This document shows, one piece after another, positions 42,980 through 45,038 of a stretch of 50,931 bases of DNA (positions are counted from its first letter, which is position 1; each line of letters opens with the position of its first letter). The stretch lies in assembly GCF_024641065.1 (NCBI RefSeq), contig NZ_JAHEDV010000007.1, positions 1 through 50,931 of the forward strand. Reading direction: 5' to 3'. Source of the DNA: Rhodoluna sp. Its GTDB lineage: Bacteria; Actinomycetota; Actinomycetes; Actinomycetales; Microbacteriaceae. The notes below the pieces were generated by a model. The model saw nothing but the letters and a program-made list of their open reading frames with translations. It was not told where the DNA came from and searched no databases. Position numbers and translations under genes: made by a program.

Positions 42980-43821
42980 GTTTCGTAAATAGCGCCGTGA
43001 CGGCCGCGGTTGCCAACGCAGAACGACGACAGAAGAATGCGCTTGCCGGTGTTTACTCTGGGCGAAGCAGAGTGGTGCTTCAGCGTGGATTCTTTGCTCT
43101 TCGAACCAGCAATCTGGTGGCTGTGGCAACCGGCTTCTTAGAGCCACTGTTCTTCTTGCTTGCATTTGGGTTCGGTTTAGGCGCACTGGTTGGCGGAATT
43201 ACCGATGGGTCAGGCAAAGAAGTAACTTTTGCGGCTTATATCGCACCAGCGCTTTTAGCGACCTCGGCGATGAATGGCGCAATTTTTGACAGCACCTGGA
43301 ATGTCTATTTCAAAATGCACTTCGCCAAGCTTTACGAGAGCATGCTTGCAACCTCGCTTGGGCCATTGGATGTAGCCCTTGGTGAAATTGCTTGGGCGCT
43401 GGTTCGTGGTGCCATGTATGCGATCAGCTTCATGTTCATCATGTGGCCACTTGGCTTGATCCCAAGTTGGTGGGGCTTACTGGCCATCCCAGGTGCTGTT
43501 TTGATCGCCTTTGGTTTTTCATCGGTGGGTATGGCTGTGACCTCATATTTGAAGTCCTTCCACCAGATGAACTACGTGAACTTCTTCATGTTGCCGATGT
43601 TCTTGTTTTCGGGCACTTTTTACCCACTGAGCGTCTACCCAGAGTGGTTGCAGGCCCTTATTCAGGCGATGCCACTTTGGCATGCAATTCAACTCGAACG
43701 TGCATTCACGCTCGGCACCATTGGTCCTGAACTGTTCGGGCACATTCTTTACTTTGCTGTCATGATCGTGGTTGGTTTGGTCTTCACAACCAAGCGACTC
43801 ACAGCCCTCTTTATGCGCTAA
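42976..43821 (+). CDS. ABC-2 type permease, second of pair
   Basis: This 281-residue permease is a diverged copy of the preceding one, sharing APALLATSAMNGA and LPMFLFSGTFYPLSVYPEWLQ. The two permeases probably form a heterodimer with the upstream ATPase. The open frame extends upstream, but ATG 42976 is chosen because it overlaps the previous stop (ATGA) and has AAGAGGT at 42961-42967. The substrate is unknown. Confidence 0.87.
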   Translation: MSFVNSAVTAAVANAERRQKNALAGVYSGRSRVVLQRGFFALRTSNLVAVATGFLEPLFFLLAFGFGLGALVGGITDGSGKEVTFAAYIAPALLATSAMNGAIFDSTWNVYFKMHFAKLYESMLATSLGPLDVALGEIAWALVRGAMYAISFMFIMWPLGLIPSWWGLLAIPGAVLIAFGFSSVGMAVTSYLKSFHQMNYVNFFMLPMFLFSGTFYPLSVYPEWLQALIQAMPLWHAIQLERAFTLGTIGPELFGHILYFAVMIVVGLVFTTKRLTALFMR

Positions 43822-43842
43822 GGGCGAAAAGAAGTTGCCATT

Positions 43843-43868
43843 AATTTGTTGTGAATAAGCAACAAATT
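43843..43868. promoter_or_regulatory. Palindromic operator 1 with embedded promoter
   Basis: AATTTGTTG (43843-43851) and CAACAAATT (43860-43868) are perfect 9-bp arms. The core 43847-43864 matches operator 2 (44572-44589) at 16 of 18 positions, consensus TGTTGYGWATAAGCAACA. TTGTGA (43849-43854) with TAACCT (43872-43877), spaced 17 nt, would place a promoter -35 inside the palindrome, so binding would repress rightward transcription. Confidence 0.7.
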
Positions 43869-43882
43869 ACTTAACCTTTCTA

Positions 43883-44005
43883 ATGGCGCTGAATACTTCC
43901 CCATTCCCCAATGGGTTTCAGCGCTTTAAGGACGCCCGTCGATCGCCCCCCGGTTTTCGGCGGGCGTTCAATTTCGAAATCATTACTTTTCCAGCAAATC
44001 GCTGA
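43883..44005 (+). CDS. Possible 40-residue leaderless ORF
   Basis: ATG 43883 opens a 40-codon frame rich in arginine, proline and phenylalanine, ending ITFPANR. It has no Shine-Dalgarno site, but a possible -10 (TAACCT) ends 5 nt before it, which fits leaderless initiation. The same bases form two long hairpins, so the transcript may instead be noncoding. No homologue is recognised, and coding status is uncertain. Confidence 0.25.
   Translation: MALNTSPFPNGFQRFKDARRSPPGFRRAFNFEIITFPANR
43886..43969 (+). ncRNA. Double-hairpin structured RNA region
   Basis: Hairpin 1 has outer arms GCGCTGAA (43886-43893) and TTCAGCGC (43917-43924) and inner arms CCCATT (43900-43905) and AATGGG (43910-43915) with a CCCC loop. 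Hairpin 2 has ACGCCCG (43932-43938) and CGGGCGT (43961-43967), extended by further pairs on both sides. They could be terminators of the ABC operon or a small RNA or leader of the downstream regulator. TTT after hairpin 1 is a weak U-run. Confidence 0.5.
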
Positions 44006-44008
44006 TGG

Positions 44009-44017
44009 TTATCCACA
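44009..44017 (+). other. DnaA box
   Basis: TTATCCACA is a perfect DnaA box, located about 50 nt before the XRE regulator gene. It could link the module to replication or be a chance match. Confidence 0.4.
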
Positions 44018-44068
44018 AGCGGGTAGATTTGAACTTGTAGCGATACCCCTCATAGCTTGGATGAATCA

Positions 44069-44338
44069 ATGGAAATTTTTGGCCCTGAAGAATCTAGTTC
44101 TTGGCTTCGCGAGCAAATGCTGGCCCGAGAAATTGAAACCTTTGATGAGCTTCAGGATAAAACCGGTATCCATAAGGGAAATCTCTCACGGTACTTCCGC
44201 CAGCAGCAGAGCCCTTCGGTGCGAGTAATCCCGGCTTTATGTGACGCCCTTGGATGTTCTCCGCACTCACTTTTGATTGGCTTGGGTGTAATCGCACCTT
44301 CTGATGAAGATGTCCTAGCTTTTCAGCTTGACGATTAG
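44069..44338 (+). CDS. XRE-family helix-turn-helix regulator
   Basis: The 89-residue protein is essentially one lambda-repressor-like HTH domain. FDELQDKTGIHKGNLSRYFRQ (about residues 24-44) is the helix-turn-helix, and SPSVRVIPALCDALGCSPHSL is the typical fourth/fifth helix region. ATG 44069 is preferred over in-frame TTG 44057. TAGCTT (44053-44058) with TTGAAC (44029-44034) gives a promoter whose start is only a few bases before the ATG. The last 24 nt overlap the convergent 79-residue gene. The two similar palindromes flanking the gene are its likely operators. Confidence 0.82.
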   Translation: MEIFGPEESSSWLREQMLAREIETFDELQDKTGIHKGNLSRYFRQQQSPSVRVIPALCDALGCSPHSLLIGLGVIAPSDEDVLAFQLDD

Positions 44339-44554
44339 CAGTTCGCCCTCAACTTCAAAGCTCCTGGATAGGTCATCTCGTGACCAAATGTCCATGGCCT
44401 CAATAGCAACCTCGTGATCAACGCCTAAGTCGGTCAGGGTGCGCCGCAAGTTTGTTTTCGTTTCGCGCATTGAAACGTGAATGCGCAAAAGATCTTGCGA
44501 AACGTTTTCAATCCATATTTCAATTGGTTCTTGGTGAACGGCAAGTTCAATCAT
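44315..44554 (-). CDS. Unknown 79-residue protein convergent to the XRE regulator
   Basis: I do not recognise this protein. It is predicted alpha/beta: strands in EIWIENVSQDLLRIHVSM, a helix around TNLRRTLTDLG and a strand ELLIVKLK at the end; it is acidic overall and has no membrane helix. The frame continues upstream to 44614, but ATG 44554 has AAGGGGG 4-5 nt upstream and is preferred. Its promoter (TAATAT at 44594-44589) abuts operator 2, so it should be repressed by whatever binds there. The 24-nt tail overlap with the regulator gene suggests antagonistic expression. An antirepressor or toxin-type role is speculative. Confidence 0.7.
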   Translation of the reverse strand: MIELAVHQEPIEIWIENVSQDLLRIHVSMRETKTNLRRTLTDLGVDHEVAIEAMDIWSRDDLSRSFEVEGELLIVKLKS

Positions 44555-44571
44555 TCGGCCCCCTTCCGTTT

Positions 44572-44589
44572 TGTTGCGTATAAGCAACA
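44572..44589. promoter_or_regulatory. Palindromic operator 2
   Basis: TGTTGC (44572-44577) and GCAACA (44584-44589) flank GTATAA. The 18-bp site matches the core of operator 1 at 16 of 18 positions and in the same orientation. It lies between the predicted -10 and the ribosome-binding site of the 79-residue gene, over the expected transcription start. Confidence 0.72.
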
Positions 44590-44622
44590 TATTATGACGG
44601 TTTACCCATTCCACAAATGAAA

Positions 44623-44654
44623 AAAGGGGCCCGCGCTATCGCGCGAGCCCCTTT
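44623..44654 (-). terminator. Terminator of the four-TM protein gene
   Basis: AAAGGGGC pairs with GCCCCTTT, and an inner CGCGC/GCGCG stem with a TATC loop extends it to 13 bp with one mismatch. On the minus strand it ends in a T-run, fitting termination of the gene at 44667-45038 and, through it, of the rib operon. Confidence 0.85.
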
Positions 44655-44666
44655 CGAGTCATCTAA

Positions 44667-45038
44667 TTACTCGACTGTTACTCCAGTGATTACTGCAATC
44701 GAAAGATTAACCACGGTCAAAAGCAAGATAGTTGGAACAGCCCACTTAGGTGCGGTTTCCTTCTTCGAGAAGGTGTAGGCGATGAAGAAGATACCGATAA
44801 TTCCGAGACCCTTGATTGAGATCACGAGATTGTTCACGGTCTCATCAGCTGCATAGACCAGACCAGTAAGAACCACGCCGGTGAGCAGCGACAACCAGGC
44901 GCCGTGAATCACGGCCGAGGTAACTGGTGCTCCAGTTTTGAAGTTCTTGGTTTGGCTTAGTGTGCCAGACATAATCGAGGCAAAGCCAAGCAGGTGCAAC
45001 ACCAAGGTGATGCGAATAATGATTTCTAGAATTTCCAT
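44667..45038 (-). CDS. Four-helix integral membrane protein
   Basis: The 123-residue protein consists of four hydrophobic helices (about residues 5-24, 42-62, 73-90 and 100-120) with short loops, including SGTLSQTKNFKTGAPVTSAVIHGAW between helices 1 and 2. The family is not one I can name; function is unknown. TAGACT (45051-45046) lies 7 nt before ATG 45038 inside the ribH 3' end, so it may have its own leaderless transcript besides read-through from ribH, which ends 3 nt upstream. A riboflavin-related role is suggested only by position. Confidence 0.72.
   Translation of the reverse strand: MEILEIIIRITLVLHLLGFASIMSGTLSQTKNFKTGAPVTSAVIHGAWLSLLTGVVLTGLVYAADETVNNLVISIKGLGIIGIFFIAYTFSKKETAPKWAVPTILLLTVVNLSIAVITGVTVE

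Follow-up and report, generated by a model that had tools for sequence, protein, structure and literature searches.

This study concerns a compact gene pair in a 50,931-nucleotide (nt) stretch of DNA from Rhodoluna sp. (contig NZ_JAHEDV010000007.1 of assembly GCF_024641065.1), referred to here as the window. The pair consists of an XRE/Cro-CI type helix-turn-helix (HTH) regulator of 89 amino acids (aa; 44069..44338, plus strand) and a convergent gene for an acidic 79-aa protein (44315..44554, minus strand), bracketed by two similar sites of 18 base pairs (bp). The comparisons reported here indicate that this is probably a repressor-effector module of the chromosome, retained by clades of a single genus, in which the XRE protein would repress the small gene and the small gene would be the output. 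A sequence-only reading of this DNA had described a two-gene switch; our analysis adds a genus-wide family, two operator classes, solo repressors in viral contigs and further sites elsewhere in the genome. Genomes are numbered G (the window genome is G000), contigs C, and viral and host loci L.

A gene pair and its operators across the genus

The coordinates of both genes and the 24-nt overlap of their 3' ends (44315..44338) were confirmed, and the pair is kept beyond this strain, at 24 loci in all. An XRE search of 59 genomes matched 14, comprising the window genome, ten relatives of the same genus and three genomes outside it (weak matches), and the convergent small gene adjoined the XRE gene in all ten relatives. 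A single-sequence search of these 59 genomes with the 79-aa protein found its own genome only, because the small gene is too divergent; this was solved by a profile built from 11 proteins (those of the window genome and the ten relatives), which matched 22 of 67 genus genomes, the XRE gene being present in each. A separate XRE search of genome contigs returned 20 loci. The two sets overlap by 18 loci (identical profile scores and lengths), and the two new ones come from other genomes, giving the union of 24; every locus of either set holds both genes. All 24 are convergent and 23 overlap at the 3' ends, by 4-51 nt, the exception being G069, near a contig edge, with a 73-nt gap between the genes. 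An overlap this short, and absent in G069, does not bear out the earlier suggestion that antisense overlap makes expression of the two genes mutually exclusive. Neighbouring genes differ among clades, and thus the module sits at several chromosomal places. The genus assemblies searched measure 0.8-1.6 Mb and many are incomplete.

Beyond the genus, an order-wide search with the small-protein profile matched 3 of 396, namely the window genome and two marginal matches inside longer frames (E about 7e-4 and 8e-4). The three weak XRE matches outside the genus were in G037, G040 and G058; the partner scan covered G040 and G058 and found no partner gene there, while G037 and a second weak XRE match in G022 lay outside that scan. 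Judged by this conservation, the pair is a genuine genus-level module of a predicted repressor and a small protein, with a regulatory core that the sequence evidence supports well.

All 24 loci have a related site 5' of the small gene, at a distance of 13-71 nt. In the window this is operator 2 (TGTTGCGTATAAGCAACA; 44572..44589), which ends 17 nt ahead of the start codon of the small gene. Operator 1 (TGTTGTGAATAAGCAACA; 43847..43864) is the site on the XRE side. The two share 16/18 bases (88% identity over 25 bp) and stand in direct orientation, 725 bp apart. A matrix made from seven module sites of other genomes ranks them first and second (23.3 and 18.8) in the 51-kb window, where the next-best score is 13.9. 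Both 18-bp sites noticed earlier lie at the coordinates given for them. Both had been called palindromic, which is right for site 2 (8/9 positions pair by eye); site 1 is only partly palindromic, since 6/9 positions pair. A pattern in IUPAC code, allowing up to three mismatches, matched the window four times, once on each strand at each of the two sites, compared with a mean of 1.04 in 100 shuffles, two of which reached four.

Across the genus the sites fall into two classes. Class 1 (GTTGC-N6-GCAAC; n = 7) comprises G000, G001, G022, G081, G082, the Loclat bin and REEB373, and class 2 (GTTCCC-N4-GGGAAC) the other 17 loci; the arms are degenerate in 4/24 (G035, G070, G074 and REEB373). Helix KG[TN]LS pairs with GTTGC, and KSSLS with GTTCCC, in the 22 of 24 loci whose helices are readable in full; the G035 XRE lacks six residues at this place and that of G069 is cut by the contig end. 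We aligned 14 class-2 upstream stretches, which represent 13 loci as one is present twice. The invariant columns fall in a TGTC-G box, in TA--AT, in the operator arms (part of their positions), at the Gs of the Shine-Dalgarno sequence and in the start codon, and the flanks vary. The class-2 operator begins 8 nt after TANNAT and therefore covers the expected transcription start.

The window has a similar arrangement. A promoter-like stretch of the small gene, TTGTGG-N16-TAATAT (44589..44616, minus strand; recognised by eye), abuts operator 2, so that this site would cover the transcription start. The earlier placing of site 2 over a predicted start thus fits the promoter seen by eye and the layout of class-2 relatives; a consensus scan, which found no sigma-70-like site in 43700-44750, did not confirm it, nor did it confirm the claim that site 1 covers a predicted -35 element. 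It had also been proposed that one repressor controls both arms. This agrees with the small-gene side of all 24 loci. On the XRE side, a site was found in four of the five class-1 loci with enough flank, at 204 nt 5' of the XRE start in G000, about 40 nt in G082 and 15 nt in Loclat; the site of REEB373 is weak, G022 has none, and G001 and G081 are too short in flank. In class 2 there is a half-site at most.

Site 1 is flanked on one side by the stop codon of a gene for an ABC-2 transporter and on the other by two strong hairpins (43885..43969, plus strand; z -6.5), which are probably the terminators of the ABC-2 operon. As structures in their own right they could be a terminator pair or possibly a small RNA; Rfam gave sub-threshold matches only on the window, and these hairpins have no family above the gathering score. 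A hairpin resembling an intrinsic terminator (44622..44655, minus strand) lies upstream of the promoter of the small gene, on the same strand. With this hairpin on one side and the two ABC-2 hairpins on the other, the unit seems to stand alone.

The regulator and the small protein

The XRE protein belongs to an HTH family by its Pfam match to HTH_26 (E 9.5e-10; 39 bits, with a cut-off of 22). Its AlphaFold2 (AF2) model is helical, with a predicted local distance difference test score (pLDDT) of 85.8, and the modelled recognition helix comprises residues 36-43, KGNLSRYF. The HTH resembles that of SinR (E 7.5e-5), and PezA is among the weak HTH matches. The window XRE is acidic (net charge -8) and differs in this from most relatives. 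Ratios of nonsynonymous to synonymous substitution rates (dN/dS) for the XRE gene are 0.01-0.08 in eight of nine class-2 pairs, the remaining pair being saturated. For the small gene they are 0.05-0.26 in 7/9 class-2 pairs, with two saturated, and by this measure the small gene is under purifying selection in class-2 pairs; the window's own gene lies outside them.

No Pfam family matches the 79-aa protein at E<=1, and its own family has no significant match in Pfam, NCBIfam, PADLOC, PHROGs or PDB sequences. The family is absent from all family libraries used. The AF2 model has the order b-b-b-a-a-b-b (pLDDT 96.8; predicted template modelling score 0.85), and neither PDB folds (best E 0.47) nor BFVD folds (best E 0.11) gave a significant match to it. 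The protein is acidic in 19/20 members. The frame of the small gene is about doubled (167-198 aa) in G020 (L021/L060), G080 (L066) and G089 (L070), with a weak second profile match, which may point to action as a dimer.

Further sites and solo regulators

The exact class-2 operator occurs once in G002 (67% complete) and once in G007 (85% complete), at the module itself; as no further exact operator was found, the repressor seems to do nothing else in these two genomes. Sites with one mismatch set G032 apart among eight class-2 genomes (5 versus 1 in the control). Dispersed sites with at most one mismatch numbered 18 versus 5 in G081, 14 versus 2 in G082, 13 versus 12 in G001 and 13 versus 6 in the module-free G062. 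Three of the four exact sites in G082 fall in a different repeat: contig C69 (7 kb; L098, L100 and L102) carries three copies of an element with a GTTGCTGATTWGCAAC palindrome, which looks unrelated to the XRE operator.

The window genome has nine exact GTTGCNNATNNGCAAC sites, operator 2 included, and seven genomes without a detected module have one together. The further sites of G000 lie on C4 and also on C10, C23 and C32. On C4 (110,580 bases), six sites fall inside genes within 11830-32681 (21 kb; L006 and L007). A first matrix was circular, having been trained on five of these six; at a cut-off of 11 its six matches equalled the highest of 20 shuffles (1-6). The independent matrix from other genomes gave C4 five sites scoring at least 15, all in the cluster, compared with 0-2 in each of 25 shuffles (top score 23.8 versus 19.6). 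Relatives could be compared for three of the genes, and in each of these the peptide encoded at the in-gene site is unlike theirs.

Several explanations of the C4 cluster were considered. That it is parS was rejected, since parS-like sites lie on C32. An origin or terminus element is disfavoured by two single-contig relatives of about 1.4 and 1.3 Mb, in which the distance from the parS-like sites to a gene of the region is about 350 and 310 kb. Inserted elements are likewise disfavoured, because the 413-aa gene carrying one site aligns without gaps with 5/5 relatives; for a diacylglycerol (DAG) kinase gene with an in-gene site, 2/8 relatives align gap-free and the others show small gaps.

Two class-1 type sites lie at other genes. 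One, in G022 (L039:7632-7649), has perfect outer arms about 60 bp 5' of a gene for a collagen-like repeat protein and is possibly a second XRE target. The other, in G001 (L040:9334-9351), lies over the likely start codon of a gene for a solute-binding lipoprotein, and its neighbours include genes that by eye resemble those of type IV pilus ATPases.

An XRE profile scan of environmental viral contigs returned 40 loci (L121-L160). The family helix is present in 37 (36 KSSLSRYF and one KGTLSKYF), and three are other XREs. The KGTLSKYF protein shares 50% identity with the window XRE over 64 residues. The 37 represent 26 distinct sequences, one of them common to seven contigs. None of the 40 loci has the small partner gene within a flank of up to 5 kb. 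A second scan with class-1 rows gave one locus (L281). In the 540,143 bases scanned for operators, out of 1,442,274 bases of viral contigs, class-2 operators had no exact match, and the single exact site was of class 1, on a contig whose XRE belongs to class 2; no exact operator thus matches its own XRE class in the viral DNA scanned. A pattern scan of viral contigs for the operator gave at least 120 stretches, about chance by estimate, and was not used. On a tree with few columns and long branches, host and virus labels need five changes, of which well-supported branches force at least two. A WhiB-like motif, which one report treats as a mark of actinophages (PMC6802176), occurs in 2/40 viral stretches. 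Neither INPHARED nor PLSDB gave a match to the small protein or a close relative; the XRE search, made in INPHARED and not in PLSDB, returned weak matches only (41 records plus one record). The viral solo XREs perhaps silence the small gene of the host.

Weighing the explanations

In the explanation that we prefer, the XRE protein would bind the 18-bp palindrome that overlaps the promoter of the small gene at its start region, and would keep the gene off. At class-1 loci, including the window, it would probably also bind the site on its own side, for autoregulation or looping, and the small acidic protein would be the output of the switch. We think that this protein is more likely to be an effector, acting to damage or slow down the cell or an invader, than just an antirepressor, since the repressor occurs alone in viral contigs. 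Binding, repression, the effector role and silencing by phages are all things that we infer from sequence comparison.

Several observations weigh against this explanation. The agreement between helix and operator largely reflects one split in the tree. On the XRE side, class-2 loci have at most the half-site CGGGAACA, seen in several of them about 57-60 nt 5' of the XRE gene, and in the window site 1 sits 204 nt from the XRE start with hairpins between. Counted without regard to sequence, palindromes beside the small gene do not clearly exceed those of random windows (7/7 outer pairs in 3/24 loci and in 2% of random windows; five or fewer in 16/24), and what carries the operator signal is therefore the conservation of sequence and position. 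Besides G002 and G007, six class-2 genomes were compared; these have no exact site, not even beside their own module, and with one mismatch they show numbers of sites similar to those of controls (1-5 in both), so that other targets are possible there. Furthermore, some twelve additional sites that resemble the operator occur in the window genome, mostly within genes, and a purely local repressor would not need them. Weak operator-like matches in viral DNA numbered 26, versus 13 in one shuffle, many of them repeated between near-identical contigs. Two viral matches equal some real operators, with scores of 19.7 (class 2; L282) and 20.0 (class 1; L294); in both cases the XRE on the contig belongs to the opposite class.

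A sharper form of the repressor-effector explanation, which we put forward tentatively, is a toxin-antitoxin (TA)-like or abortive-infection module. The small protein would be toxic, the XRE protein would be its transcriptional brake, and a solo XRE brought by a phage would keep it off. The viral loci agree with this, in that the family helix recurs in 26 distinct sequences and no partner gene was found within the flank of up to 5 kb, and so does the patchy presence of the module in 22/67 genomes, many of which are incomplete. However, the two genes are convergent and do not form one operon, no PADLOC or Pfam model matched, and the WhiB-like mark of actinophages is present in few of the viral stretches.

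Unlikely, in our judgement, is a double-negative switch with two states, in which the small acidic protein would be an antirepressor that binds the XRE protein and frees it from DNA, so that the module would mainly control the other targets of the XRE. The acidity of nearly all small-protein members, the likeness of the XRE HTH to SinR and the further sites in the window genome, among them the exact core sites, would suit such a switch, as would the role proposed for the small partner of WhiJ in Streptomyces (PMC6262351). Yet in G002 and G007 there may be little else to control, the one-mismatch counts of the eight class-2 genomes show no clear excess over controls, G032 apart, and the window XRE is itself acidic.

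The repressor-effector explanation can also be extended to a contest between host and virus, which we regard as doubtful. Here a new-fold, infection-related effector would stand under XRE control, and phage solo XREs of both DNA-binding classes would, upon infection, bind the operator of the host so that the effector stays off. If true, phages would be using a repressor captured from the host to silence a promoter, as a form of counter-defence.

The suggestion that the two sites are the ends of a tiny mobile unit, now a relic, is very improbable. It would account for near-identical sites in direct orientation and for more copies of the site in the genome. Across relatives, however, the sites behave as operators: the small-gene side is kept near the start codon, the XRE-side site varies in place or is absent, and the sequence changes with the helix type. 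In addition, the in-gene sites did not lengthen the 413-aa gene or the DAG kinase, and no transposase was recognised by eye among the open reading frames of the window, although no profile search was aimed at one. Chance palindromes beside two ordinary genes would fit the generic palindrome count but are hardly credible, given the class-specific site 5' of the small gene at every locus, the invariant operator columns, and a matrix from other genomes that picks both window sites.

The statement that no described system has this protein pair still stands, as none was found in the family libraries or the open-access literature. The Streptomyces XRE-DUF397 pairs (WhiJ/SCO4542, Scr1/Scr2 and WhiJ9/BldB9) share with it an actinobacterial XRE protein and a small protein, and repressor/antirepressor or TA-like action has been proposed for them (PMC6262351, PMC10294661, PMC10364602). 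In those pairs the small gene often follows the regulator and has a DUF397 domain, and WhiJ9 binds direct repeats, whereas the module described here has an HTH-only XRE, a convergent overlapping gene and a palindromic site. When 20 small-protein members were compared with Pfam, the families listed at E<=1 did not include DUF397, and the usual layout, with the small gene downstream in the same direction, was found at none of the 24 loci.

Three other systems have partial likenesses. SinR/SinI of Bacillus also combines a SinR-like HTH with a small partner. SinI is a short helical protein, whereas the small protein here is modelled as a/b and its gene is convergent. Type II TA systems with XRE antitoxins of the PezA type are likewise small two-gene modules with an HTH regulator, but the present module is not one operon and has no known toxin family or significant fold match. 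The CI/Cro immunity switches of phages have an XRE-type repressor and palindromic operators, as here, and two divergent repressor genes. In the module, by contrast, the genes are convergent and so form no pair of divergent repressors, no HTH family matches the partner, and the XREs of viral contigs have no exact operator of their own class in the DNA scanned.

In summary, this module would be a repressor-operator-effector unit of minimal size, in which helix variants and their matching operators form a natural series, and it includes a conserved protein family undescribed in the libraries used. Whether phages use captured repressors to silence genes of their hosts can be tested on it directly and cheaply. 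Finally, in hosts with genomes this small, the small modules that are kept are likely to matter.
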